Below are positions 2,499-16,697 of a DNA stretch of 64,000 nt, piece by piece. The position numbers were made by a program, and so were the translations under genes. The DNA is from Bacillota bacterium. Lineage in GTDB: Bacteria; Bacillota; Sulfobacillia; DUMF01. The first letter of the stretch is position 1. Every line of letters begins with the position of its first letter. The stretch lies in assembly GCA_012840015.1 (NCBI GenBank), contig DUMF01000006.1:1-64000 (forward strand). The letters are read 5' to 3'. The notes below the pieces were generated by a model. That model was not told the origin of the DNA, did no database searches, and saw nothing but the letters and a program-made list of their open reading frames with translations.

Positions 2499-3086
2499 TT
2501 ATCTCACGTCATTGCAGAACCTGATGTGCTCACATTCTCGACACCGTTGAATGGACCTGCTCAGAGGAGGTAAGCGTTCCGACCGGATCATATTTCTTAT
2601 GGCTCCCATAATCCTCAGACAATGGAGTCTGGCGTTTGGGGTGATCTGGATAGGCCACAGTCTCTTCTCACCTTCCGACGTACACACGAAACCACATCGC
2701 ACAGGCCGCTTCATCACGTCTTCGAGCAGGAGTGCATAAGCGGTCAGCTGGTATTTGTGGTTCAGGCCTGGCGGTCGAGCCGTATCTTTGAATTCCACGG
2801 GGAAATATCCGGCAGGGCTCACTATCAGTAAGTCTAAGAGCCCGTTCAAGCCGAGCCTTTCCGATCGAAGGTAGACCCCGAACTGCCTTTCGCCTTCGTC
2901 CAGGCGGTATCGCCGCAAGCTCCTGCGATTCTCATAACCCTGAAACTCCAGATGCCGTTCTTTGCCGTACTCCATTTTTCTAGTGATCTTGGTTTTGAGT
3001 GGCATCACATAATCGAAGTAGACCACTCTCGGGCAGTAAACGAATTGCTTTATGTCGGAAACCCGCAGCTCCATCGGTAACCTCAC
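2499..3086 (-). CDS. cas4: CRISPR-associated exonuclease Cas4
   Basis: The product is 195 aa. It has the Cas4 plan: an N-terminal cysteine in FVYCPRVVYFDY, the nuclease core with GLLDLL...VEFKD (PD-(D/E)XK-like Asp and Glu-Val-Lys equivalents, residues about 80-100), a conserved Q-Y in KYQLTAYALLLED, and a C-terminal CRECEHIRFC cluster for the 4Fe-4S site. Cas4 trims prespacers and helps select the PAM. The GTG start at 3086 overlaps the TGA of cas2 (GTGA), which suggests coupled translation. An ATG four codons later (3074) is an alternative start. Confidence 0.92.
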   Translation of the reverse strand: MRLPMELRVSDIKQFVYCPRVVYFDYVMPLKTKITRKMEYGKERHLEFQGYENRRSLRRYRLDEGERQFGVYLRSERLGLNGLLDLLIVSPAGYFPVEFKDTARPPGLNHKYQLTAYALLLEDVMKRPVRCGFVCTSEGEKRLWPIQITPNARLHCLRIMGAIRNMIRSERLPPLSRSIQRCRECEHIRFCNDVR

Positions 3087-3493
3087 TTTCTGCTCCCACC
3101 CGGAGTCACAGAGTCTTCGGCCACGCGGACGCCCTTCGTTGGGAACCTTACAGGTCTGCTCTGAGCACTACTTGGCGTTATGGGAGACATGCCATCTTCG
3201 GAAATGGCGAGGGGTTCTTCCTCGAACTCTGGATAGGATAGGCTCTGGCCGATTTGACGGCTCAAGGCCATGTCCTTTTCGCAGATTGGGTAGAACTGGA
3301 TGTTGCCTTTCGCTTTCCCGAGTACCCGCTTCAAACGCTTCTGCAGTTCTTCCAGGCGGTTGTGGGTGAGATAACCTCTGAACGCGCTATACTGAATTCT
3401 TTCCAGGCCGTAGTCCTTGCAGGCCTCGGCCACCTTGTACCGCAGCCTGTCATCCACTATGTCGTATATGACCAGCGTCTCCACGATAGCCAC
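3083..3493 (-). CDS. cas2: CRISPR-associated endoribonuclease-like Cas2, with C-terminal extension
   Basis: The product is 136 aa. Residues 1-90 match Cas2: the first strand VIYDIVDDRLRYKVAEACKD with the conserved Asp, then ERIQYSAFRGYLTHNRLEEL and the IQFYPICEKD strand. Cas2 forms the core of the Cas1-Cas2 integrase. The remaining 45 or so residues (rich in Pro, Ser and Arg) exceed the normal 85-100 aa length and match nothing I recognise. They end by overlapping the cas4 start, so the extension could be a run-on into the cas4 junction. The gene lies 23 bp after cas1. Confidence 0.93.
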   Translation of the reverse strand: MAIVETLVIYDIVDDRLRYKVAEACKDYGLERIQYSAFRGYLTHNRLEELQKRLKRVLGKAKGNIQFYPICEKDMALSRQIGQSLSYPEFEEEPLAISEDGMSPITPSSAQSRPVRFPTKGVRVAEDSVTPGGSRK

Positions 3494-3516: not shown

Positions 3517-4527
3517 CTACCATCCCGCTACGAACGCTCTGTACCGCCCTTCCCGGCGCACATGAGCTGCCACTGCCCTCGCTTGCCTTTGTATGATTGC
3601 CTTCAATGCAAGCTTCTTCCCATCGTAGGTGTCTTGAGCTTCGAGCCGTTCTCCAATGCGCTCAGCGATTTCACGCCTGGTTTCTAAGGTCAACCCCTGC
3701 TTATCCATCCCTATCCTCATGCCTCTTAGGACTGCTACGATGAGCGGGCGGTCGATCAAATGAGGCCGAAACTCCTCGACCAAGTCCAGCACGAGCGAAG
3801 GTTTGCCGGGTCTATCCACGTGAATGAAACCAGCGAATTCGTCGAGGCCGGCTAGAATCACCGCGCCCCATACCGTGTGGTAAAGTATGCCATACCCGTA
3901 GTTCAGCATAGAGTTCAGAGGATCGGTTGCCTCGCGATGTTCTCTCCCGGGGAAATCCACCTTGGAGGACACGAGCTTCTTCAAGCATTCCCAATAGTGC
4001 GTGGCAGCTCTCCCTTCTATTGAAAGCAGTTGTGGGCGTAGCTCGTCAATCGTCGTACCCCCGAGCCTGTCTATCTCGCGACGCACCGAGTCTATTCTCG
4101 AGGCGGCATCATAAAGGCTTTCGTACATCACCGGATCGGATTCTTTCCGATGCTTGGCGAAATACCGCAAAACATTGGCCTGATTGTGGACCTTCCCCAT
4201 GACAAACGCCCTGCCCAGCTCAGCTCCGCGCACGTCGGAATACGCCGCAAGCTGCTCCCTTCTGGTCATGACAGTCCCAACGAGGTTGGGCGAGACGATT
4301 TTTGCGTAAGGGGAACCCGAGGAACTAACGAAGTTTATTTGGATGCCGTGCTCCACGCATTCTCGGAGAAAATCTGTGGATAAACCAACACCAGGGCACG
4401 CGATAGTAACTTGTTCCACGTTAGCAAAAGGAACTTCGAGAGCTACCTGTCCGTTCTTCTTGACTACCAGGCGCTCGCTCCTCTTGGAGAGAAAAGTACC
4501 GAACTCATCCAGAATCAGGTGCTCCAC
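3517..4527 (-). CDS. cas1: CRISPR-associated integrase Cas1
   Basis: The product is 336 aa, a normal Cas1 length. It has an N-terminal beta domain (residues 1-75) and a helical catalytic domain. The metal-binding triad is visible as Glu171 (LLSIEGRAATHYW), His236 (AGFIHVDRPGKPSL) and Glu251 (LDLVEEFRP). The DPLNSMLNYGYGILY signature is also present. Cas1 integrates new spacers together with Cas2. Its start overlaps the end of cas6 by 23 bp and cas2 follows closely, so cas6-cas1-cas2-cas4-csa1 reads as one operon. Confidence 0.97.
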   Translation of the reverse strand: MEHLILDEFGTFLSKRSERLVVKKNGQVALEVPFANVEQVTIACPGVGLSTDFLRECVEHGIQINFVSSSGSPYAKIVSPNLVGTVMTRREQLAAYSDVRGAELGRAFVMGKVHNQANVLRYFAKHRKESDPVMYESLYDAASRIDSVRREIDRLGGTTIDELRPQLLSIEGRAATHYWECLKKLVSSKVDFPGREHREATDPLNSMLNYGYGILYHTVWGAVILAGLDEFAGFIHVDRPGKPSLVLDLVEEFRPHLIDRPLIVAVLRGMRIGMDKQGLTLETRREIAERIGERLEAQDTYDGKKLALKAIIQRQARAVAAHVRREGRYRAFVAGW

Positions 4528-5509
4528 GACGGTTCACCAGCCTGTATTGGCCGAGCCCGAAAGTGGTCCCTTTCCCCACGTGAATCAGCTCACCCAGCAT
4601 CAGTAGGGATCCGAACGGCTCGATATCCCCGGAGTAGGTCACGGTCCCAATTATGCCGCCCATGTTCATTGAAGCTTTCTGTCTGGTGGAGTAGCGCTCC
4701 CAGTCGACCCAGCGCAGGCGAGAATCGACGGTCCTAACTCCCGTAGCCTCCTTGATGAGTGCGGCAAAATCGAGGTCCGGCTCAATCCCGTGATAGAAGT
4801 ACGCGATGGTGGAGTACCGCCGTAGCAGTGACCTCAATAGAACGTGGAACGGCGGCGAAGCTACGAACTCATTTTCGTATTTCAATCTAGTCATGGTCAG
4901 GAACTCTACGGTGAGTGGATTCCAGGACCGGAGGCGCGTCTCCTCGTCGATCTGCTGACCGGTTACGATTAGCGAGTCGTTAGGGCTATATACGATCTTT
5001 CCGTCGAAAACCGTAAATTCGTCAGGATAGAGTGGGTTAAACATCCGGACCCTTTCCAGTTCGACTTTTCCCCTCTTGCCGTTTTGTTTACTGCCAAGCC
5101 CATCATGCCCGAGCTCGTTCAAGGCTACGATGAAATAAGGCAGGTATTCGATAGCCCAGCCTGCGAGCACAACCCAGAAAACGATTTGGTCGTCGGGAGC
5201 ATACTCGAGCTTTGCATCCAGCGGTGGCCTCAGGACGAAAGGCCGCGGCACGTTCTCCAAGTTCCGGAGGCGCGTGGAGTTGTTGGGCGGTCCTGGCTCG
5301 AATATTTTGCCGTAAGGGCATGCGCTGCGGAGATCGCACGGAGAACAGTCGTTCAGCCCTCGTTCGCTGCAAGTTATCCTGCGGAAGATCGTGCCAAAAG
5401 CTCCCCGAAGCGCGCTGCCTTTATAAGGCGGAAGCAGTACCTTGCTCTGGACTCTGAACGAGAACTCAAACAGGGCTATTCTAATGTCGCCCAAGGCAAC
5501 AACGCTCAT
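4505..5509 (-). CDS. cas6: CRISPR RNA-processing endoribonuclease Cas6 (RAMP)
   Basis: The product is 334 aa from the ATG at 5509, which follows GGAGGG at good spacing; the frame is open 47 codons further upstream but that part is not Cas6-like. The N-terminal LPPYKGSALRGAFGTIFRR block and nearby cysteines (CSPCDLRSACPYGKIFEP), the FTVFD strand and the C-terminal glycine-rich loop GKGTTFGLGQYRL are hallmarks of the COG5551-type Cas6 family. It would cut the pre-crRNA within repeats to leave the ACUGAAAG tag. It is the first gene of the leftward operon and is divergent from the WYL regulator. Confidence 0.88.
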   Translation of the reverse strand: MSVVALGDIRIALFEFSFRVQSKVLLPPYKGSALRGAFGTIFRRITCSERGLNDCSPCDLRSACPYGKIFEPGPPNNSTRLRNLENVPRPFVLRPPLDAKLEYAPDDQIVFWVVLAGWAIEYLPYFIVALNELGHDGLGSKQNGKRGKVELERVRMFNPLYPDEFTVFDGKIVYSPNDSLIVTGQQIDEETRLRSWNPLTVEFLTMTRLKYENEFVASPPFHVLLRSLLRRYSTIAYFYHGIEPDLDFAALIKEATGVRTVDSRLRWVDWERYSTRQKASMNMGGIIGTVTYSGDIEPFGSLLMLGELIHVGKGTTFGLGQYRLVNRRGAPDSG

Positions 5510-5604
5510 AGCACCCTCCGTAATTCTTTCTCTCACTAAATTTCTACATGAAGTGAGGCGTTTCCTCTCATGAGTTGCCAAAACATGCAGGATTTTGAAG
5601 CCTT

Positions 5605-5621
5605 TTGCAGAAAATGCAAAT
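5605..5621. promoter_or_regulatory. Inverted repeat in the cas6/WYL divergent promoter region, candidate operator
   Basis: TTTGCA-N5-TGCAAA is a perfect 6-bp inverted repeat in the 161-bp region between the divergent starts of cas6 (5509) and the WYL regulator (5671). Its place between two divergent transcripts makes it a candidate binding site for the WYL protein. That role is inference from position and symmetry only. Confidence 0.4.
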
Positions 5622-5670
5622 GGAGGCAATGGCGACCGTCGGGACTGCAAGCTAACCAGGAGGCGAAAGG

Positions 5671-6747
5671 ATGTCGCGAAGTTCCTCGGCTCAGGCCGGT
5701 ATTAAGCCGGGCTTGGGGACGAACTTGGTGGGATTCTGGAGGCTTTGCGAGATTCACCGGCTGATATCAGAAGGGAGTTACCCCAATTGCAGTTCCCTTG
5801 CCAAACGTTTCGAGGTACACCCCAGGACCGTCGAGCGAGATATCGAGCGCCTGAGGGATCTGTTCGCCGCCCCGGTGGCTTACGATCCAATCCGCCGCGG
5901 GTATTACTACACTGAGCCTTTCAGTCTCCCCGCGATGCGTTTGAAGGAAGGGGAAGCCATCGCTTTATTCCTCGGCCAGAAGATCCTCTTGCAATGCAAG
6001 GGTACTCCCTTTGAGCAGTTCGTACGCCAGGCCATGCAGAAAATCAGGGTGTTCCTGCCACACGAGGTAGAAATCAATCTGGAACGAATGGTTGGAGCCG
6101 TCTCATTTCACGTCGAACCACTGCGGGGAGAAGAGGTCCGGGTGGCAGAAATTTATCAGGCACTGGTGCAAGCCATCGAAGAGCGCCGAACTGTGGAAGT
6201 GAATTACTTCACTGCGAGCAGGGGCGTTACAACTCGGCGACGCATTGATCCGTATCATTTGCGTTTCGTGGATGGTGCATGGTACTGCATCGGGTACTGC
6301 CATTCTAGGTCTTCGGTTCGCACTTTCGCTCTGGACAGGATGTCCGCACTTACCGTGACACAGGATCGCTTTGAGTATCCGGCCGATTTTTCACTGGAGG
6401 AGTACCTGGCCGATGCCTGGGTCATAGAGAGGGGCGTGCCGAGAAACGTAGTTATCCAATTCGATACCCAGGAAGCTCCCTATATTCGGGGGAGGCAATG
6501 GCACCCGAGCCAGAAGCTTGAAGAGTTACCCGACGGATCCCTGAGGATGACGCTTGTCATAGGAGGATTGGGGGAGCTCAAAAGGTGGATCATGAGCTTT
6601 GGACCTCATGCGGTTGTGATAGACCCGGAAGAGCTGAGGGCTGAGATCGTATCTGACCTGCGCCGGGCGCTGGAACAGTATGAGGGCATGGTTGCCCCTT
6701 CCGTTCGCGTTGCAGAAGGGCGAGAGGGGCGCTCCGACACTGCGTGA
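5671..6747 (+). CDS. HTH/WYL-domain transcriptional regulator
   Basis: The product is 358 aa. Residues about 25-90 form a DeoR/HTH_11-like winged helix (NCSSLAKRFEVHPRTVERDIERL). Residues about 145-235 carry the WYL domain (VEVNYF...RRRIDPYHLRFVDGAWYCIGYCHSR...TFALDRM), and the C-terminal WCX extension ends near residue 335. WYL regulators bind nucleic acid ligands and often control CRISPR or other defence loci. The ATG has AGGAGG 6 nt upstream. It is divergent from cas6 and precedes the interference genes on the same strand, so control of one or both is likely. Confidence 0.9.
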   Translation: MSRSSSAQAGIKPGLGTNLVGFWRLCEIHRLISEGSYPNCSSLAKRFEVHPRTVERDIERLRDLFAAPVAYDPIRRGYYYTEPFSLPAMRLKEGEAIALFLGQKILLQCKGTPFEQFVRQAMQKIRVFLPHEVEINLERMVGAVSFHVEPLRGEEVRVAEIYQALVQAIEERRTVEVNYFTASRGVTTRRRIDPYHLRFVDGAWYCIGYCHSRSSVRTFALDRMSALTVTQDRFEYPADFSLEEYLADAWVIERGVPRNVVIQFDTQEAPYIRGRQWHPSQKLEELPDGSLRMTLVIGGLGELKRWIMSFGPHAVVIDPEELRAEIVSDLRRALEQYEGMVAPSVRVAEGREGRSDTA

Positions 6748-6800
6748 CGGGGTTGCCCCTGTAGTATCGAGGGGAGAGATAACTGCGGAGGCGGGGGCCG

Positions 6801-7466
6801 ATGAAGTCTCTCCTTAAAGAGCTGGCAACGAGTGGGCAGTTGGACGCCTATACAGGAGACGAATTGCAGCTACCGGCCTTGATCATGGGCATTGCGCTGC
6901 TTCGGAAGGGGGCTCTCTCTGCCGGTATCAGGGCGTTGAGTGGAGTCTCGAAGTGGGGGCATGGTGAAATTGGGTTCGTGCGCTCTCTGGCTCCAAAGGA
7001 ACTCATCCTGAACGCTGCGGCTGAAGATTATCATTGCTCTTTCGGAGGCGGCTTCGAAGTAAGCGGATTGGCCTTCGTCTGGGGTGCGCTGCTGGGGGAT
7101 TCTGCTGGCAGAGTTCTGGCGTTTTACGAAGAAGCCAACGAGTTCTTCACGCGCGTGGTGGGGCTGCGTCACGAGAGGCGCCTGGAACGGGTCAAGGAAG
7201 TTTCTCCCGGAGACTGCGCCCTGCTGGTGTGGGACCCAGCCAACCCCTATGACCCAATGGCGATCCGGGTTCTGGACGACAAAGGGCGTGACCTGGGCTA
7301 TCTCCGGGCCACAGTGGCTCGTTTCCTGGTCCCGAGGATCAAGAAAGGTGCTCTCTTGAAGGCGCGGGTAGCTGCGGTGCTCGGGGAGCAGTTCGGTCCA
7401 AACGATAGGCTTCATCTGAAGGTACGTGTCAGTCCCGAGCCGGGATACGTGTCAGTAATGAATTAG
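6801..7466 (+). CDS. HIRAN-domain protein in the CRISPR locus
   Basis: The product is 221 aa. The C-terminal part (about residues 115-210) fits a HIRAN domain: the N-P-Y-D-P-M-A-I block (VWDPANPYDPMAIRVLDD), then GRDLGYLRATVARFLVPRI, and a strand-rich end. HIRAN domains bind DNA ends or stalled forks and occur alone in some CRISPR and phage-related loci. The N-terminal 110 residues, with glycine-rich hydrophobic stretches, match nothing I recognise. The gene follows the WYL gene by 53 bp with GGAGG before the ATG, so the two may be co-transcribed. Confidence 0.65.
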   Translation: MKSLLKELATSGQLDAYTGDELQLPALIMGIALLRKGALSAGIRALSGVSKWGHGEIGFVRSLAPKELILNAAAEDYHCSFGGGFEVSGLAFVWGALLGDSAGRVLAFYEEANEFFTRVVGLRHERRLERVKEVSPGDCALLVWDPANPYDPMAIRVLDDKGRDLGYLRATVARFLVPRIKKGALLKARVAAVLGEQFGPNDRLHLKVRVSPEPGYVSVMN

Positions 7467-7480
7467 GAGGGCGACTGTGC

Positions 7481-7870
7481 TTGTTTGAACAGGGCTCCTT
7501 CTGCGAGTTCTTCAGTAGGTTGACCGGGTTTCAACCCTACCCATACCAGGTTGAGACCGCACGCATGCTTTACGAAGAGCATAACGTTATACTCCGGGCT
7601 CCCACCGGGGCGGGGGAAACCCTCTCTGTCCTGGCCCCTTTTCTTTTCGGCCGGAAGACGCTGGGGCTCTCCCGCTTGATTTACGCCCTCCCACTGCGCT
7701 CTCTGGCTCATGGCGTCTTCGCGGAGGCCAAGTCGCTTGCGGAGAAGATCGGACTGCTGCCCCGGTCCGTGACCATACAGACCGGAGATAATCCCGACGA
7801 CCCGTTCTTCGATACTGGCACGATGATTATCACACATATGACCCTGCTACTGAGCAGGTCGTGTTTCTGA
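7481..7870 (+). pseudogene. Truncated Cas3-like helicase (N-terminal fragment)
   Basis: The 129-residue frame has a TTG start 10 nt after AGGAGG. It encodes the Q-motif region (PYPYQVETARMLYEE), motif I as RAPTGAGET with Glu where the ATP-binding Lys should be, motif Ia as YALPLRSLA, and the VTIQTGDNPDDPFF stretch typical of Cas3 helicases. It stops at about where motif II should start (TMIITHMTLLLSRSCF). A complete Cas3 helicase would need several hundred more residues, so this is a dead remnant of a Cas3 unlike the intact one downstream. Confidence 0.75.
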
Positions 7871-8100
7871 ACAGACTAGGTCAAGACACATTGCGAAGAC
7901 TTTTTGTGCGGATGAGGACGCAGGCAAACCAAAAGGACGTTGCCCGGAGCAAGGAGGAGGCACTGGACTGGACCAGCGTGATAGCGCACGCTAGCCGTGC
8001 GGATGGCTAGCAGTGGACCGTATTAATGACTGGTGTCTAGATAGTCACTCCAAATGATCATGGTAAAACGGTATGAAGGTTTTGCCGGGTAAACAGGTGT
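7871..8100. other. Short gene-free stretch between two helicase remnants
   Basis: No frame of useful length and no similarity I recognise. A region of weak dyad symmetry (GCTAGCC...GGCTAGC) lies near 7990-8009. The stretch is probably what is left of a deletion that joined two broken helicase genes. Confidence 0.3.
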
Positions 8101-8471
8101 TGGGGCCTGCCTTTGTCAGAATTGGTTACTAACCGAGCGCCCGAGATAGAGAAAAACATCCCAGAAGAAATAAGGGAACTTCTCCAGGCCTATACGCAAG
8201 CTAAAAGACCTATTTCCCTCTTAGCCACCAAGCTGAGGTGTTTAATCGGGTATTAGAAGATCAGGAAGTGTTCCTGGTAGCGGGGACGGCGGCAGGAAAG
8301 ACTCTGGCTATCGCCGTGCCGCTGTTCCATAAGTTGCGGCAGGGGACCCTGCCCGATGACCGGGTGCGCATGGCTTCCACGTGGGCACCACCCCCGAGAT
8401 GGTCAGTTGGCTTCTCTACTATGGCACCCTGGTGGAGGTCCTGTAGCCATACTAGCTGCGGGTGCGGGTAG
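8101..8471 (+). pseudogene. Decayed second helicase fragment with Walker A
   Basis: Two frames are needed. From 8101 one frame gives a helicase N-terminal linker (ELVTNRAPEIEKNIPEEIRE). After a frameshift near 8210 a second gives YFPLSHQAEVFNRVLEDQEV and a motif I VAGTAAGKTLAIAVPLFHKL. The sequence then loses similarity before its stop. The pattern HQAE...GTAAGKT is that of DEAD/DEAH-box superfamily 2 helicases. Motif I differs from both the fragment before it and the intact helicase after it, so this is a separate gene remnant, not a duplicate of either. Confidence 0.65.
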
Positions 8472-8609
8472 CAGAGAACATGGAAGGCAGGAGGGACATA
8501 CGAGGGAGATTTGGGCAAGGAAAGAGTGATTTGAAGCAAGGTGGAAAGACCCACAGACATTCCTGTGTGGGAAAGCGGTTCACTATTGGTTTTTGAGGAG
8601 GATACTGCC

Positions 8610-10439
8610 GTGAGGATTGGTCTCCAAGAAGCCTACGATAGGATAGGGATTGAGCATAGTTACGATCACCAGGAAAAAGCCTGGGACGCTGTGCATAAAA
8701 ACCAAAACGTAATTCTCGCAGCCGGAACAGGCTCTGGTAAAACGGAAGCTGTCCTTGTTCCTGCTCTGGCGAAAAATCTGCGGGTGATTCTTGTCTATCC
8801 CACTAAAGCGCTTCTACAGGATCAGGTTCCTAGAGTCCAAGAGCTATGGGAGAAAATCCATGAAAAACCTGCAACTGGACACGTCTCGATAGACACTGGC
8901 GATGACAATGACGAGACCCTCTTTCGAGGCGATGTCATTCTGACAACAATAGACAAGTTGCTTTACCGCGTCTTTGGCTACGGTAGTGCCCGCTGGGGTT
9001 ACATCTACCCCTGGCGCATCGCGCAAAGCTCTCAGAAGAAGACACTCCTAGTTTTTGATGAGGCCCATGCCTACGATGAGGTCTCCCTTACTCACTTCCT
9101 TTTCTTGATTGATAGACTGACCTACGAGAAAGGCATCCAAACTGCCATACTGTCTGCCACCTTGCCGCAGGCTCTGGTGGAGCATCTTCAGGATACTCCA
9201 GGCAAAAGTTTCCCGAGAGCTAGTGGTGAGGGGGAATTCTTTCAGCTCATTAGCGAAAAAGCTGGTGAGGTCAAGAGAGGGCAGGTCCGGTACGGTGGGC
9301 ATCTCGAAAATCCCAGCGAAGTTATGCAAAAAGCATCCGATGCCTACAAGCGAGGACAACAGGTGATTATCATCGTTAACAGTGTGTACCCCCCAAAAGA
9401 AGAAGAACCTACAAGCAGCGAGGAGGCGCAAGGATTTTCGGTCAAAGAGCTATGGGAAGCCCTGCGAGACGAGTTGGGTGATCGAGCTTTAGAAGATTTG
9501 ATCCTCTATCATGGCCATCAATCGCCAGGCCAGCGGCGGGAATTTCTGAAGAAGCTCCAAGAACGAGATGCGTCCCGTAGAGATGCCCCGAAGCCATACA
9601 TACTGGTGACTACATCGGCCTTCGAGCTAGGAGTGAATGTCTCTTGTGATTTAATGCTCACCGAGGTGTGCAGTCCTGATGCCTTTGCCCAGCGGATTGG
9701 ACGCTGTGCTCGACGATCGAAGAGAAGGGACGATGGTACCGAAGAGCCTGAGCAAGGGGAAGTTTATACCTTCGGAGATGTTTCTCCAAAAGTGTCACCT
9801 GGAGAGAAAGAGGCTCAGCACAAACTAATGGATTTACTTCAACACTATAAAGGAAAAACACTAGACGCTGATGTGAAAGCTCAGATCAATGCTTTCAACA
9901 TCTTTGACACCGCTCTATTGGCTCGCCGTCGCAATACGGTTATCTACACAGTGGATGCTTCCCTGTACGACTACGTATACGGCTTTGTGGCCACTGGGGC
10001 CGAGGTATGGCGGAAGGGTGTTCTGGTCACACGGGATTGGGTACCAACGTTGGAAATCCAACCAGATGGGGAAGACCCCAAAGAACGGCTACGGTTGTCT
10101 GCTAGTTATTCTGTCCCTAGAGAGTTGGTGAAGGGTTGGTGGTTCGAGACAAGAGATATAGACGGACGGGCCATTCGCATCCACGGCAAGGATGTGCTTG
10201 GGCAGTTGGAGGCATGTGGGGTAAGCACCCAACAGAAAGCAGTGAACGCTTATCAAGCCACCTTAGTTGTCTGGCTGAAACCCGAAGCCTGGGATAATGT
10301 ATTCGGATTGAAGGAGCGAAAACGCTCGGATCCTGCGAAAGGTAATATACCATGCCCACCCGAGATGAGAGCAGTTTTCGTCAAGCCCTTGCCCGATGCT
10401 CCAGCGCTCTTTTGGTTCGAGCCCGAGGAGGAAGTGTGA
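8610..10439 (+). CDS. cas3: CRISPR-associated helicase Cas3' (type I-D-like, no HD domain)
   Basis: The product is 609 aa from the GTG at 8610, chosen because TGAGGAGG lies 9 nt upstream; a GTG at 8541 would add 23 residues but has no ribosome site. Motif I is AAGTGSGKTE (residues 37-46), motif II FDEAHAYD (Asp150), motif III ILSATLP (about 180) and motif VI QRIGRCARR (from 361). The C-terminal third is less conserved. No HD nuclease domain is present at either end, as in type I-D where helicase and nuclease are separate. It is the first gene of the interference operon and ends one base before the HD gene. Confidence 0.85.
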   Translation: MRIGLQEAYDRIGIEHSYDHQEKAWDAVHKNQNVILAAGTGSGKTEAVLVPALAKNLRVILVYPTKALLQDQVPRVQELWEKIHEKPATGHVSIDTGDDNDETLFRGDVILTTIDKLLYRVFGYGSARWGYIYPWRIAQSSQKKTLLVFDEAHAYDEVSLTHFLFLIDRLTYEKGIQTAILSATLPQALVEHLQDTPGKSFPRASGEGEFFQLISEKAGEVKRGQVRYGGHLENPSEVMQKASDAYKRGQQVIIIVNSVYPPKEEEPTSSEEAQGFSVKELWEALRDELGDRALEDLILYHGHQSPGQRREFLKKLQERDASRRDAPKPYILVTTSAFELGVNVSCDLMLTEVCSPDAFAQRIGRCARRSKRRDDGTEEPEQGEVYTFGDVSPKVSPGEKEAQHKLMDLLQHYKGKTLDADVKAQINAFNIFDTALLARRRNTVIYTVDASLYDYVYGFVATGAEVWRKGVLVTRDWVPTLEIQPDGEDPKERLRLSASYSVPRELVKGWWFETRDIDGRAIRIHGKDVLGQLEACGVSTQQKAVNAYQATLVVWLKPEAWDNVFGLKERKRSDPAKGNIPCPPEMRAVFVKPLPDAPALFWFEPEEEV

Positions 10440-10440
10440 G

Positions 10441-11331
10441 ATGAGTGAGAAAGGATTCTACGCCGCTAAGATTATTAGATGCGGCAATGCTTTCTATCTC
10501 ATTGAAGTTGACGATCATAATAGACACGTAGGTGAGATTGCAAAAACGCTTGGGGCCTCAGAAGCGGGGTGTGCGGCAGCTCTGTGTCATGATCTGGGCA
10601 AAGTTGGCAATCTGGAGAGGGCTATTGCCGATCGCAAGCCACAGATAACACGGGATTATTTGCAGGCTTATGTGGATTGGATTGTTAGACAAGCGGGGCT
10701 GGATAAAGTATTGAAAGGGCCGATAAGACAACATTTCGTCCTGGCTTTGCTTTGCAAAGGCACGTTGCAAGAGCGGTATATAGCAGTCAAAACTGCCCTT
10801 AGCGGTTTACAGGATGACCGCTTACAAAAATTAGCGGGCCTTTCCGTGTCACCTTTCCCTCGCCATGCCGATGGCATCCCCGAAATGGTGCTGGGACGCT
10901 CAGTGAAAAATGAGTACTTGCCGCAGGCAGGGTGTCCGCATGAATTGATTGATTACGCCTTTGAATTGATTCGCCTGCACCATTCCTTCCGGGTAGATCG
11001 TATCGTAGAAGCCGCCAGCGCTCTAGAAGCCCGCTTACCGAATGCCTCCGCCAAGCAATTTGTACAGGACTTGCACACCCTTATCTCAGCCGACAATGTG
11101 GCCTCTGGTCTGTACGAGAAAGCACTGTCGGCTACGGACGGGACATTTTCGTTTGGGGACCCGGCCCAGGAGTCGTTTCTACTCCATGATTTGGAAGGTG
11201 CCGGTAAGGTAGAATGGCTCTCATCATCGGGCGAACTTCGCCGCTGCTGCATGCACCTTGAGTGGCAAGCGTCTGGTGGTCCGAAAGAGCTCTACCTTGA
11301 CGTGACCTATCATGTAGTGGAGGTGGGATGA
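10441..11331 (+). CDS. Free-standing HD-domain nuclease, Cas10d/Cas3''-type
   Basis: The product is 296 aa; the ATG follows GAGGAGG at 8 nt. Metal-binding residues of an HD phosphohydrolase fold are visible: His29 (NRHVGEI), His50-Asp51 (ALCHDLGK), His180-His181 (RLHHSF) and Asp218 in SADNVASG. That last motif is typical of HD domains at the N-terminus of Cas10 proteins rather than of Cas3. In type I-D the HD nuclease is normally the first domain of Cas10d; here it is its own gene, followed with a 4-bp overlap by the large subunit. It probably cuts target DNA once Cas3' unwinds it. Confidence 0.8.
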   Translation: MSEKGFYAAKIIRCGNAFYLIEVDDHNRHVGEIAKTLGASEAGCAAALCHDLGKVGNLERAIADRKPQITRDYLQAYVDWIVRQAGLDKVLKGPIRQHFVLALLCKGTLQERYIAVKTALSGLQDDRLQKLAGLSVSPFPRHADGIPEMVLGRSVKNEYLPQAGCPHELIDYAFELIRLHHSFRVDRIVEAASALEARLPNASAKQFVQDLHTLISADNVASGLYEKALSATDGTFSFGDPAQESFLLHDLEGAGKVEWLSSSGELRRCCMHLEWQASGGPKELYLDVTYHVVEVG

Positions 11332-13232
11332 TGGAGTCCTATTCAACAGCCGTTCGTGCCCTGCTGAAATTTGCCGACCTTCCGCGAGAGGCCACAGCCC
11401 TGGCTCGCGCTTTGTTGGGAAGCACGCTGACGGAGCCCCAGTACCGGGCCCTTCTGGCAGCCGTGGGGGCTTTTGCTAAGGACAATGAATCATACTTCCT
11501 GCGCTATGACGATATCAAAGCACCCGTACCTAATGAATTACGAAGCCAATTCGAGAGTTGGTTAGACAGCATGGAGAAGAGGGACGATGAGGCGCTTCGC
11601 TGGCTGGTCTTCCGCAAGCCCAACGAACCCCGTATGCGAGCAGCTTACGAGGTCCTAGCGGGATGGGTGCTGAAATTCTTGTACCAAACCTGGGGTGCTA
11701 TTCCAGTGGATTACGCTGATGGTCAGGCAAGGATATGGTGGCCCGAAGCTAGAGCAGAAGAAGTGAAAAACATATGGAAAACGTTCCAAGAGTGGTTTCT
11801 CAATAACCACAAACATCTCTTAGAACAGAATGTAAGAATGCTACTCACACTACTAAAAAAGGATTTACGCGGTACAAAGAAAGTCTACTTGCCAAAAGGT
11901 GAGTTATTTGACACAGCCGGGTCAATTATCTGCGAATACGGGTACGAAACGCCACGGCGGAAGAAAGTGACAAACCTACCTCCGTTTTCGATAAACGGTT
12001 GCCCAAATTATTTGGATACTTTGGCATCACCGTGCCTTTTTTGTGGCTCACTTAATGGTATCAAAAGGATCGGAGTAAAGTTAGTTATACCTGAGTCAAA
12101 GAAGATATGGACAGATTCACCTGGAACTAGAGAGCATCCAACTATTTGCCCTGAATGTTTCTTTGCTGCCCTCATCAGCGGCTTTTACCCTTCAGAGGCC
12201 TACTCAGTGTGCGAACTTCCTATCGCTTCAGCGTACCAGACCTTTGTACTGGCCCAACGCCTATCCAATGTCACGGCATCGCTGGGTGCAATGGCTATCG
12301 CCCGTTCAGCGTTGCTAACTGTTCTACCTTCCAGGTATTTCCTCGTTCAGCTCGCAACAGGCAGAAGAGCTTTGCCAAAGAAGACCCAACTCTATCTCCT
12401 TCTGGCAGACTACAGCTTTTCATTTCCAGCCGACGGGGGCGCGATAAGGGCCTATGTGGAGGCCACTGGAGCGATTAATTACTTGAACATCCACTTGGAT
12501 GTGTTAAGGATTCTGAACCTGTTCCGGCGCGGGGAGGTGCTACCGCCTCACTTCGTCACAGATGGCAAATCGAAAGCTCGGGCTAACGACGCAGTACATT
12601 TGCTGGAAGCAGGTAAGCCCTATGCAGCTCTGTATCGGCTGCTCTATGATCCCTACAAGAAGGCAGAAGAGCAAAGGGGGTGGCTTGGCGAACGGAGTCT
12701 TTTCAAATCACCAAACACCCTGGCAACATTCGACGAGATAGTGCAGCAGGGTGCCAGGACCTTGCTGGAATTTCTTCTGAGAGGAGGCGAAAGCAAGATG
12801 TTAACCAGAGACGACCCTGGGGCGTTCTACCAGGATGTCAAGGACCTTTCCGATGCCCTTTACGACTTACTTCAGCCCATCGCCCAGGACGACGTGAACA
12901 AAAGTCGCTCCAACGTTTCCGTGGAAGTCCGTAAATACGTAAAGGCTGTTGAGAAACGCTTTCCCCAGCTTAATTTGGTCGAACTTCAGTACATGGTTGC
13001 CAAAGCTGGTGACGATGCGGAGAAGCGACGGACGGCAGGTGAAACCGTCTACGTGAAAGGCAAGGAGGGGCTACTACAGGGTCTGGACGACATTGAAAGA
13101 AAAGTCGCCGAGATGTATGGCAAGTACTTCCAGAGCGGAAATGCCTACATCTGGCGGGAGTTTATCAAAGAGGTGAGCCAGCGCTTGCTGGCTAGGCTGT
13201 TGTTGGGTGTTCGGGCAGCATCACAACGGTAG
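11328..13232 (+). CDS. Cas10d-like large subunit of the type I-D-like Cascade (lacks HD)
   Basis: The product is 634 aa. Two CxxC pairs (Cys236/239 in CLFCG and Cys274/277 in CPECF) form a zinc-binding site like that of Cas10-family proteins. I see no GGDD cyclase motif, as expected for Cas10d. The N-terminus starts directly with a helical segment and has no HD signature. Adding the preceding 296-aa HD protein gives about 930 residues, near the usual size of a one-piece Cas10d, so the two genes look like a split Cas10d. Assignment rests on position between the HD gene and csc2 plus the zinc site. ATG ATG at the start overlaps the TGA of the HD gene. Confidence 0.7.
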   Translation: MMESYSTAVRALLKFADLPREATALARALLGSTLTEPQYRALLAAVGAFAKDNESYFLRYDDIKAPVPNELRSQFESWLDSMEKRDDEALRWLVFRKPNEPRMRAAYEVLAGWVLKFLYQTWGAIPVDYADGQARIWWPEARAEEVKNIWKTFQEWFLNNHKHLLEQNVRMLLTLLKKDLRGTKKVYLPKGELFDTAGSIICEYGYETPRRKKVTNLPPFSINGCPNYLDTLASPCLFCGSLNGIKRIGVKLVIPESKKIWTDSPGTREHPTICPECFFAALISGFYPSEAYSVCELPIASAYQTFVLAQRLSNVTASLGAMAIARSALLTVLPSRYFLVQLATGRRALPKKTQLYLLLADYSFSFPADGGAIRAYVEATGAINYLNIHLDVLRILNLFRRGEVLPPHFVTDGKSKARANDAVHLLEAGKPYAALYRLLYDPYKKAEEQRGWLGERSLFKSPNTLATFDEIVQQGARTLLEFLLRGGESKMLTRDDPGAFYQDVKDLSDALYDLLQPIAQDDVNKSRSNVSVEVRKYVKAVEKRFPQLNLVELQYMVAKAGDDAEKRRTAGETVYVKGKEGLLQGLDDIERKVAEMYGKYFQSGNAYIWREFIKEVSQRLLARLLLGVRAASQR

Positions 13233-13293: not shown

Positions 13294-14595
13294 ATGTCCG
13301 AAAAGAAGAATCTAGATTGCGGGCTGATTTCGCCAAATGCCAAGACGGTGATCGTCTCTGCTGTCCTGGAGACAGTGGGACAGGTGCGTTTCGGCGATGG
13401 TACGGAAGTTAACCTAACGATCACTGAGAAAGACCTCGTCCCTACACAAAGCGGGGGATTTGTGGAAAAGGTCGTCTTCTCCGGTTCCAAGCGGCGAGGA
13501 GTGGATCGACGGACGGTACATACTCTGCGGAATCAGTTTTTGGCGCTCAATCCGTTCTGCTACATTCCTGAACTGTGCCGTCGCTGCCCCACCTGCTGGC
13601 TCTTCGGCGGCACAGCTATGGGAGAGGGCTACAACATCAAGTCACGTGTCCTTTATGCTTCGGCTCTTTCAGTGGAACCGGCCGACATTGCCGTTGCTGT
13701 TCACAATCGCAATGCTCCCAACGAGTTAGACCACACCACAGGCGAAGCCGGTATTCACAGCGAGGAACTGATCAAGGCCAATGTTCACTTCCCTACGATA
13801 ACCGTTCTCGACCGGGTAGTGGACTGGGAAATCGGGGCCTTTGCTCATGCCTTGCTGGAGAACGTCAATGGTAATCGCTACACCGCTGCTTCGGCCCGCC
13901 AAGGAGGGATTCGCTTCAGCGAAGGCGACGGCGGCAAGCTAATTGTGGTGGATGTCTCGGAGCAGGGTATCTTCCCACTAGAAACAGTAAAAGTGCCCGG
14001 TGAGGAAACCGACTTTGCCAGGGTGAAGGCTATGTTCGTTGATGCTGCTAATCTCGAGAAAATCAAAGCAGCCTTCCACGGCCAAGGCTTCACCTGCGAC
14101 ACTGGGAGTGGAGGCAGCTCCTTCACGGTCAAGAGCGGTGCCAGGACACTGTGGACCATTGAAAAGGCAGACAATGTAATCACGGTCAAGCAGGGCCAGG
14201 GCGAGCAGGCCAAGGTCTTGATGACCCGTTTTGTTGGTGAACGGGCCTACGGTTTCCTGCGGGAGCGACAAGAGGACTGCAAACACTTTTTTGATGAGTT
14301 CACTCCAACTGAGTGGGAGAAGACTTTGGCTGAAATCAAAAGAAGGCTGAAGCTCGAGACGGACACAGCATTGCCTGAAGAGGTGGCCAGGCTGGTGGAA
14401 TCCGGGGCTCAGAAGGAGCAAGTTGTTGAAGCTTTGAAGAAGCACAAGCTCAGCCCTAAGGAAGAAGGTAGTGTGCTGATTGTCACCAAGGGCAAGAAAG
14501 AACTTACACGCTTGACCGTGGAACCTGATGGAACGGTGAAGAGGCAAGAAGCCGCACCGTCCGATACACCCTCGGAGGAGGATGCTGAGGAATGA
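13294..14595 (+). CDS. csc2: Type I-D Cascade backbone protein Csc2 (Cas7)
   Basis: The product is 433 aa from the ATG at 13294 behind AAGGAG. It shows the Csc2 pattern: CRRCPTCWLFGG, then KSRVLYASALSVEP, an HNRNAPNELDHTTGEAG block, FPTITVLD and NGNRYTAASARQGG. Csc2 subunits polymerise along the crRNA spacer. Csc2 proteins I know of are about 330-360 aa. This one has additional C-terminal sequence that is charged and repetitive in character and ends in an acidic tail (PSDTPSEEDAEE). It overlaps csc1 by 4 bp. Confidence 0.85.
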   Translation: MSEKKNLDCGLISPNAKTVIVSAVLETVGQVRFGDGTEVNLTITEKDLVPTQSGGFVEKVVFSGSKRRGVDRRTVHTLRNQFLALNPFCYIPELCRRCPTCWLFGGTAMGEGYNIKSRVLYASALSVEPADIAVAVHNRNAPNELDHTTGEAGIHSEELIKANVHFPTITVLDRVVDWEIGAFAHALLENVNGNRYTAASARQGGIRFSEGDGGKLIVVDVSEQGIFPLETVKVPGEETDFARVKAMFVDAANLEKIKAAFHGQGFTCDTGSGGSSFTVKSGARTLWTIEKADNVITVKQGQGEQAKVLMTRFVGERAYGFLRERQEDCKHFFDEFTPTEWEKTLAEIKRRLKLETDTALPEEVARLVESGAQKEQVVEALKKHKLSPKEEGSVLIVTKGKKELTRLTVEPDGTVKRQEAAPSDTPSEEDAEE

Positions 14596-15362
14596 GTTCC
14601 AAAACGTTATGGTGTCTGGAACTCCGCCTGCAGCCTCTTTCTGAGTTGCTGATTCGGCAGGTGGGCAAGTCCAACGTGCAATGGTTTTCCTACCCCTTCC
14701 TGCCACCGACTACCTTTAGTGGTTTTGTTGCCAGCCTGCTGGCTGACCCAGGAGAGGACGCATGGCGAAAAAACTACATCGAGGTGAACGATGACACCGC
14801 GCGGGAAGTGAATGCATTCTCTCCAGGAGTCTTCTCTGTGGGTGCTTACCCTGATCCGGCGCTTGTCAGGCGCAATCGCCACTATCGGCAGCATCTGGGC
14901 GATGTGTACAATTACGAGGAGTTTGCCTGGGCAGGCAACAAGAAGCTGGCGGTTGCTGAAGCCTTTTGGACGCCGGAGTTGAGAGGATTTCTGCTGGCTT
15001 CGACTGCCGAGTTCTTGCGGCAACTTGCTCATCGTACTGGCCTGCTTTTTCGGGCAATGCGAGTAGGGAAGAAAGGAGTAACAAAGGTCAAGGCAGTAAT
15101 AGGACCGTACGAAGTCACACTTCAGCCGGCTCAGGGCGTCATACCGTCTACCGTTGCCCCTCTGGAGATGATCCGTCATTTCCCGAGCGGTCTGGAAGTG
15201 TTCCATGTGCCCGTACGGAAAAGAGCGGGGCCACAGCTTGTCCGCCATGTTTATCCCTGTGTGTTTGGGCAGGCCATTTATGGACAAGTCTACACCAACA
15301 ATTCTAGAGCGGTGATTATTCCTGAACCATTGGTACGTCTTACGCAGTCTGGTGCTAGCTAA
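14592..15362 (+). CDS. csc1: Type I-D Cas5 subunit Csc1
   Basis: The product is 256 aa. It starts in the ATGA overlap with the csc2 stop. The N-terminal strand (LWCLELRLQPLSELLIRQVG) followed by SYPFLPPTTFSGFVASLL is the RAMP first helix region of Cas5-type proteins, and the C-terminal VYPCVFGQAIYGQVY is strand-rich. Csc1 caps the 5' tag end of the crRNA. Family membership rests partly on its position directly after csc2, where csc1 belongs. No second cas6 follows; the cas6 of the leftward operon would supply crRNA. Confidence 0.75.
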   Translation: MSSKTLWCLELRLQPLSELLIRQVGKSNVQWFSYPFLPPTTFSGFVASLLADPGEDAWRKNYIEVNDDTAREVNAFSPGVFSVGAYPDPALVRRNRHYRQHLGDVYNYEEFAWAGNKKLAVAEAFWTPELRGFLLASTAEFLRQLAHRTGLLFRAMRVGKKGVTKVKAVIGPYEVTLQPAQGVIPSTVAPLEMIRHFPSGLEVFHVPVRKRAGPQLVRHVYPCVFGQAIYGQVYTNNSRAVIIPEPLVRLTQSGAS

Positions 15363-15728: not shown

Positions 15729-16697
15729 GTGCTTGCTCAGCGCAGCCCAGCTCGCAGCATCAATCTCTCCATCTTGGCCGTGGTAACTATTGTAATAACG
15801 ATGGCAACAACGTCTTGCTCGGTGAAGAACTGCAATACGGAAGCACCTGCTGTTGACGATCTGCGTATTCGCGAACAGGGTCAAACTGGCGCAGAGTCCC
15901 CGCGTGGAGGGTTTCCTGTTTCGGAAAGCAAGCCAAACGCCAAAAGCGCGCTGGTGAACGTAGCTGGGAAAACCGTTGAGGACAGGTTCTTGACGCCTGA
16001 AGGGTTTGTTAGAACGACGGTGGCTCCAGGTTCATTTGGGGAGTACTTGAGGACTCTCCCGCTAAAACCAGATGGCTCAGACGTCCGCTATTACGATGGA
16101 AGAGTCAAATCTAACAGGGTCTGGGAGGCCGTTTTGGACATTGACGTGGGCAACAGGGACCTCCAGCAGTGCGCTGACGCGGTGATCAGGCTGAGAGCCG
16201 AATACCTCTACAAGAATAGAAGGTACGACCAAATCCATTTCAACTTCGCCAACGGGTTCAGGGCGGATTACAAGAAATGGATGGACGGGTATAGGATCAT
16301 CGTCGAGGGTAACGAGGCGTATTGGGCCAAAACCGCGGCGCGCGGATTAACCCCCGGGTACCGGGAATTCAGAAAATACATGGACGTGGTGTTCGCTTAT
16401 GCGAATACCGTATCCTTGGCGAAAGAAATGAAGCCTGTGGACGTGGCAAAGATGGGTATTGGAGATGTGTTCGTCGACAGCGGTCACGCCGTGATCGTCG
16501 TGGATATGGCCGAAAACAAGGCTACCGGCAAGAGGCTATTCATGATTGCCCAGAGCTACATGCCTGCGCAGGACATACACATCCTTAAGAACCCTGCTAA
16601 TGAGGACCTCAGCCCATGGTACGAGTTAGATTTCGGGGAGACGTTGCGGACCCCAGAGTGGACGTTTACAAAGCGGGATTTGAGGAGCTTCAGATGA
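15729..16697 (+). CDS. DUF4846-family lipoprotein
   Basis: The product is 322 aa; GTG start with GGGGAGG about 7 nt upstream. The N-terminus has a positively charged start, a hydrophobic core (LSILAVVTIVITMATTSC) and a lipobox-like Cys at residue 30. The body matches DUF4846: SFGEYLRTLPLKPDGSDV, YDGRVKSN, DVGNRDLQQCADAVIRLRAE and FNFANGFRADYKKWMDGYR. The function of DUF4846 proteins is not established. The gene stands alone and converges with the radical-SAM pseudogene, overlapping it by 8 bp. Confidence 0.85.
   Translation: MLAQRSPARSINLSILAVVTIVITMATTSCSVKNCNTEAPAVDDLRIREQGQTGAESPRGGFPVSESKPNAKSALVNVAGKTVEDRFLTPEGFVRTTVAPGSFGEYLRTLPLKPDGSDVRYYDGRVKSNRVWEAVLDIDVGNRDLQQCADAVIRLRAEYLYKNRRYDQIHFNFANGFRADYKKWMDGYRIIVEGNEAYWAKTAARGLTPGYREFRKYMDVVFAYANTVSLAKEMKPVDVAKMGIGDVFVDSGHAVIVVDMAENKATGKRLFMIAQSYMPAQDIHILKNPANEDLSPWYELDFGETLRTPEWTFTKRDLRSFR

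Follow-up and report, generated by a model that had tools for sequence, protein, structure and literature searches.

A probable mosaic type I CRISPR effector with a free-standing HD protein, a Csc2-type Cas7 and a large subunit nearer to Cas8b

Our findings suggest that the CRISPR locus studied here probably encodes a rare, recurrent type I effector of mosaic make-up, which combines a Csc2-type Cas7, a Cas3' helicase that falls in between known groups, an I-B-like Cas5, an HD-less large subunit (LS) nearer to Cas8b than to Cas10d, and a free Cas3'' protein. We base this on direct observations of gene order, conserved catalytic and zinc-ligand residues, a conserved internal start, and family and tree placements. 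The locus had previously been proposed, in a sequence-only reading, as a possible under-described variant of type I-D. The variant is indeed not described in the literature searched, and the main text of the 2025 classification does not mention the arrangement, which may be drawn in its supplementary notes or figures. The assignment to I-D found partial support: Cas7 is of I-D type, but Cas5 is I-B-like and the LS is matched only by models labelled Cas8b.

Locus layout and recurrence of the gene arrangement

The window, that is, the whole stretch of 64,000 nucleotides that was analysed, covers positions 1-64,000 of contig DUMF01000006.1 (assembly GCA_012840015.1), and its left edge is the contig end, inside a CRISPR array. 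Next to the array stand csa1, cas4, cas2, cas1 and cas6 on the minus strand, then, in plus orientation, WYL and HIRAN genes and the effector operon, which the array and these cas genes complete to a full locus. Its features are as follows.

1-480, no strand assigned: CRISPR array, truncated at position 1 where the contig ends, with 7 identical copies of the 33-nt repeat core CAGTCCCCTCTACATCGGGGTGAGTGGTGCAAC
1489-2469, minus: cas4a/csa1 (PF06023 1.3e-81, TIGR01896 9e-67)
2499-3086, minus: cas4 (TIGR00372 4.9e-31)
3083-3493, minus: cas2 (PF09827 2.2e-19)
3517-4527, minus: cas1 (TIGR00287 2.8e-79)
4505-5650, minus: cas6 (PF10040 6.8e-22; PADLOC Cas6 4e-97)
5671-6747, plus: WYL-domain transcriptional regulator (PF13280 3.4e-23)
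6801-7466, plus: HIRAN-domain protein (PF08797 3.1e-11; against L012 7.8e-21)
8541-10439, plus: cas3' helicase (TIGR01587 3.9e-38; PADLOC Cas3d 1.7e-123; hhalign to I-D Cas3' 4e-33)
10441-11331, plus: free-standing HD nuclease (Cas3''), 296 aa (H-HD-H-HH-D motifs; hhalign to the HD domains of Cas10d and I-B Cas3)
11328-13232, plus: HD-less LS, 634 aa (PADLOC PDLC01203 Cas8b 3.9e-30; hhalign to the Csh1 zinc finger 2.2e-4)
12798-13232, plus: candidate Cas11-like small subunit from internal translation, 144 aa (start at Met491, preceded by AGAGGAGG)
13294-14595, plus: cas7, Csc2 type (TIGR03157 2.1e-13; hhalign to I-D Csc2 4e-21)
14592-15362, plus: cas5, I-B-like (PADLOC Cas5b 1.1e-24; hhalign to I-B Cas5 8e-5)

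A WYL-HIRAN pair precedes the effector operon both here (5671-7466) and in an Archaeoglobi locus (L012:1-1010). Positions 7481-8450 hold remnants of one or two further helicase genes, namely a fragment of 129 aa with GAGET as its Walker A, and another decayed stretch at ~8230-8400 that carries AGTAAGKT. A DUF4846 gene 3' of cas5 (15729-16697) is probably unrelated. The six spacers had no exact 24-nt match among viral contigs, so no PAM was derived.

In the proposed survey of other genomes, the helicase-HD-LS order recurs. Seven loci from several bacterial phyla and one archaeon keep HD, LS and Cas7 in this order, with HD encoded separately in all of them. At 7/7 loci the LS gene is immediately preceded by the HD gene and followed by Cas7 (in Rubrobacter radiotolerans with a separate small-subunit ORF in between); the six whose contigs extend far enough also have the helicase in front and Cas5 behind. 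At the six loci compared, the HD and LS genes share 1 to 23 bp or stand 1 bp apart, and the reading frame of HD, which differs from that of LS, stops where LS begins; a single gene disrupted by a sequencing error is therefore not the explanation. A frameshift or assembly error was also ruled out by the recurrence of the split in seven loci.

Members of the group were found in three ways. First, PADLOC's Cas8b-labelled model picked out two of 399 genomes from the window's phylum, one of them the genome that the window comes from. Second, the R. radiotolerans plasmid NZ_CP007515.1 (L009) provides one more member. Third, a scan of genome contigs with a three-row LS alignment gave four more loci, in MAGs of Caldisericota, Bacillota, Archaeoglobi and Rubrobacteraceae; the same scan with a single LS as query returned no relatives. 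The scan uses short exact patterns, and the seven loci are thus a lower bound. No relatives were found in viral contigs and phage records. The R. radiotolerans plasmid carries all five effector genes in the window's order and differs in that its LS frame is interrupted ahead of the Cas11 part, here encoded as a separate ORF (L009:7362-7811), and in the presence of a CARF-HEPN gene. NCBI annotates its HD and LS products as 'hypothetical protein' and its Cas7 as 'type I-D'. Both Rubrobacter loci have a CARF-type gene between Cas5 and Cas6 (L009:9716-10945, L013:8530-9882), with a Csm6 HEPN domain confirmed for the former, although no Cas10 cyclase is seen in the type I effector.

The HD protein and the large subunit

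The sequence-only reading had described a 296-aa protein with His50-Asp51, His180-His181 and a SADNVASG motif, overlapping by 4 bp a 634-aa zinc-binding large subunit that has no HD domain. All of this was confirmed, the overlap being an ATGA. In the six full-length HD members, H26, H50, D51, H142, H180, H181 and D218 are kept throughout, which gives the non-permuted H-HD-H-HH-D motif set of Cas3''. Profile comparisons by hhalign, against sets drawn from one phylum, matched the protein to the HD domains of I-D Cas10d (1.1e-4) and of I-B Cas3 (2.5e-4), and 0/60 column shuffles did as well in either case. Among curated models, Cas3'' was matched below its cut-off (TIGR01596 E 0.017, 15.2 bits against a cut-off of 43.45).

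Could this be a non-Cas HD phosphohydrolase that lies in the operon by chance? Its weak Phn-HD match, also below cut-off (E 0.0075), is as good as that to Cas3'', and its AlphaFold2 model (pLDDT 80; helical as far as residue 230, with beta structure at the C-terminal end, 235-294) gave no significant fold match in Foldseek, both of which would fit. We nonetheless regard such a coincidence as highly improbable: the gene lies between helicase and LS wherever the contig reaches, the Cas3'' motif set is conserved, the profile matches to Cas3 and Cas10d domains exceed every shuffle, and the locus contains no other HD nuclease domain. PDB sequence searches gave no match. A tree of HD domains resolved the groups, though not the order among them or the place of the window HD.

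By per-sequence motif listing, used because a joint alignment of all HD sequences misplaces the His-His column, and among related group members that are not independent events, the His-His pair is present in 6/6 full-length HD proteins of the window group, 3/3 examined of a second group with a free HD protein (below), 7/7 I-B Cas3 and 3/4 Cst1-type Cas3. None of the six fused Cas10d has it in the corresponding context; L030, one of the six, has HH elsewhere. The Cas10d structure from S. islandicus lacks the extra histidines that hold the second metal in T. fusca Cas3 (PMC7689449), and the window HD protein may bind two metals. On the His-His mark it counts as Cas3-like rather than as a detached Cas10d domain.

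The window LS has no match to Pfam or NCBIfam families. Its predicted zinc-binding CxxC...CxxC cysteines (C236, C239, C274 and C277) are kept in all seven members, and so is a match to PADLOC PDLC01203 ('Cas8b, CAS-I-B'), a model whose 688 positions equal the R. radiotolerans LS length, so that its label probably derives from the window group itself and is not independent evidence. In the proposed profile search against Cas10d, neither TIGR03174 nor any PADLOC Cas10d model matched any of the seven members, and no Cas8a model of PADLOC or NCBIfam matched either. Structure prediction, also proposed for both proteins, was no more telling for the LS, whose AlphaFold2 model is poor (pLDDT 50) and without a significant Foldseek fold match. 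In profile comparison the LS is similar to Cas8b/Csh1 (2.2e-4, 0/60 shuffles), limited to 55 columns of the zinc finger, whereas its similarity to Cas10d (E 0.19-0.29) lies inside column-shuffle noise (4/60 as good at 0.29). Beyond the group itself, the Cas8b zinc finger is the one relative of the LS that could be detected. Cas10d itself resembles Csh1 in that finger (9e-4), a likeness between I-D and I-B large subunits that Makarova et al. had pointed out (2011, PMC3150331); the evidence therefore leans to Cas8b without settling the matter, and the LS may instead be a very divergent Cas10d.

This bears on the proposal of a split Cas10d, according to which the LS is a I-D large subunit that gave up its N-terminal HD domain to a gene of its own, with function otherwise as in I-D. 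The two proteins had been said to equal a normal Cas10d together; in length they do (930 aa against 912-1051 aa in six fused Cas10d), and in sequence they do not. The HD similarity to Cas10d and the Csc2-type Cas7 would also fit. The noise-level LS similarity, the His-His pair and a Cas5 that is not Csc1 argue against it, and we consider a split Cas10d unlikely. Of the original claim, a Cas7 of I-D type and three separate proteins stand; that HD and LS are the halves of a Cas10d is not supported, given an LS that has no detectable relation to it.

A further conserved signal lies where the helical C-terminal part of the LS begins. In the window, AGAGGAGG lies ten bases before an in-frame ATG (Met491, 12798), and a Shine-Dalgarno-like sequence with an ATG, GTG or TTG start occurs at this place in 7/7 loci (window 12798-13232, L010, L011, L012, L013, L004, and L009 as the separate ORF). 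In I-B, I-C and I-D, Cas11 is known to be translated from an internal start (PMC10212523). The conserved ribosome site and start probably encode a Cas11-like small subunit, which would be expressed from within the LS gene. In three I-D loci with fused Cas10d (L032, L033 and L034), cas10d is followed, ahead of cas7, by a further gene that encodes 207-220 aa and is probably a free-standing Cas11; its product is not similar to the Cas11d of the second group with a free HD protein (hhalign 0.044).

Affinities of Cas7, Cas5 and the helicase, and a second group with a free HD protein

The remaining effector proteins point in different directions, and PADLOC files its models for parts of the system partly under I-B and partly under I-D. 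Cas7 is of the Csc2 type, with TIGR03157 over its cut-off and a strong match to I-D Csc2 (4e-21), as opposed to I-B Cas7 (0.35, 26/60 shuffles as good); the PADLOC model that matches it at 3e-15, PDLC01388, is labelled Cas7b. Cas5 is of the I-B type (PADLOC Cas5b; hhalign 8e-5 over a 27-column stretch, 0/60 shuffles), as opposed to Csc1 (0.27, 13/60 as good). The helicase has both Walker A (AGTGSGKT) and DEAH, and is indeed encoded by its own gene at 8541-10439, as first described, so that HD, LS and helicase are three proteins.

In the helicase tree, the window group, I-D and the second group with a free HD protein are separated from I-B and Cst1 (support 100/99), and I-D with that second group from all others (99/98). 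The window helicases thus sit on the branch between the two sides of the tree, which is unrooted, so that this in-between position gives no direction of change. A clade of the window group with fused I-D alone was rejected (p-AU 0.0097), as was one with the second group alone (p-AU 0.015); in a smaller tree, the window group with I-B alone (p-AU 0.013) and with Cst1 alone (p-AU 0.014) were rejected as well. That the helicase adjoins I-D would suit a split Cas10d, and that it does not group with fused I-D alone speaks against one.

An ordinary I-B variant, with Cas3 split into helicase and HD and Cas7 swapped for one of I-D type, would account for the filing of LS and Cas5 under I-B in PADLOC, for their profile similarities and for that of HD to I-B HD domains. 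Yet the rejected helicase grouping, a Cas7 without a profile relation to I-B Cas7, and a gene order of helicase then HD, where the HD of I-B Cas3 is N-terminal to the helicase, make this an improbable origin.

A second group with a free-standing HD protein, in this case bona fide I-D, occurs in four genomes of the window's phylum (G124/L098, G070/L105, G122/L112 and G177/L123; loci L098, L105, L112, L113, L114 and L123). The first three were met by looking around csa1 genes, with G177 as the fourth, and have separate genes for helicase, HD (242-276 aa), LS (624-718 aa), small subunit, Cas7 and Cas5. At the two loci scanned with PADLOC, LS (Cas10_Id PDLC01506), Cas11d (PDLC01499) and Cas5d (PDLC01497) were all labelled I-D, and the HD protein is close to the Cas10d HD domain (6e-8). 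The Cas10_Id model matched 5/300 genomes, four confirmed as split and the fifth weak, while six genomes in a like sample of 300 had long fused Cas10d frames. Csc3 as two genes, which by the sequence-only reading's own standard would count against its claim if regular, therefore occurs to some extent, and since PADLOC already models an HD-less Cas10_Id, a separate HD protein is not new for I-D as such. This true I-D precedent in the same phylum favours a split Cas10d also for the window. Against that, no relation between the two groups was detectable for the LS (0.14) or Cas5 (0.35). They share the Cas7 family and not the LS, Cas5 or helicase clade, and a free HD protein thus arose or survived in two lineages.

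Proposed function, evolution and comparison with known systems

Established type I systems produce crRNAs with Cas6, assemble Cascade from Cas7, Cas5, the large subunit and Cas11, and cut the displaced strand with the Cas3 parts. By the same logic, Cas6 would trim the crRNA of the mosaic effector, and Cas7, Cas5, LS and internally translated Cas11 would assemble as Cascade, which would open double-stranded DNA flanked by a PAM. The displaced strand could then recruit Cas3' and the separate HD nuclease, with the latter nicking this strand, at a site that may hold two metal ions, and degradation proceeding as Cas3' unwinds.

Makarova et al. (2011) left open whether I-D took its HD domain from Cas3 or gained it by the later fusion of a protein that had stood alone (PMC3150331), and a 2023 review models other type I systems as arising by movement of HD from the large subunit to the helicase (PMC10212523). 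With HD free in both the window group and the second group, it becomes possible to test in which order the fusions took place and whether physical linkage is needed. It is possible, as a tentative suggestion, that the window group is a surviving intermediate between I-D and I-B-like systems that would merit its own subtype; in such an intermediate, equally tentatively, HD would be off the LS and not on the helicase, with LS and Cas5 already Cas8b/I-B-like and Cas7 still of the I-D kind. The group may show how one CRISPR kind turned into another, and the three-part Cas3'/Cas3''/Cascade offers biochemists a separable nuclease.

Type I-A shares with the window separate Cas3' and Cas3'' proteins and Csa1, and differs in its Cas8a, to which the LS gave no match. 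Three csa1 loci (L077, L079 and L085, in G086, G028 and G132) lie up to about 12 kb from I-D effector genes (L032-L034) on the same contigs. Csa1, although named as a I-A marker, thus adjoins I-D loci in the window's phylum and does not by itself mark a system as I-A; an assignment of the locus to I-A because of Csa1 was rejected.

Type I-D with fused Cas10d/Csc3 (six loci, L029-L034) is like the window in its Csc2-type Cas7, separate Cas3' and non-permuted HD, and unlike it in that HD is joined to Cas10d and lacks the His-His motif, and in a large subunit and Cas5 (Csc1) that are unrelated by profile. Type I-B (Cas8b/Csh1) has a similar Cas5 and LS zinc finger, an HD-less LS and a Cas11 start inside the LS gene (PMC10212523, PMC11899642), whereas its HD is fused to the helicase in Cas3 and its Cas7 is from another family. 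The second group with a free HD protein shares with the window the His-His pair, an HD-less LS, a Csc2-type Cas7 and the order helicase-HD-LS-(small subunit)-Cas7-Cas5, but its helicase is sister to that of fused I-D, its Cas11 has its own gene, and its LS and Cas5 are not recognisably related to those of the window.
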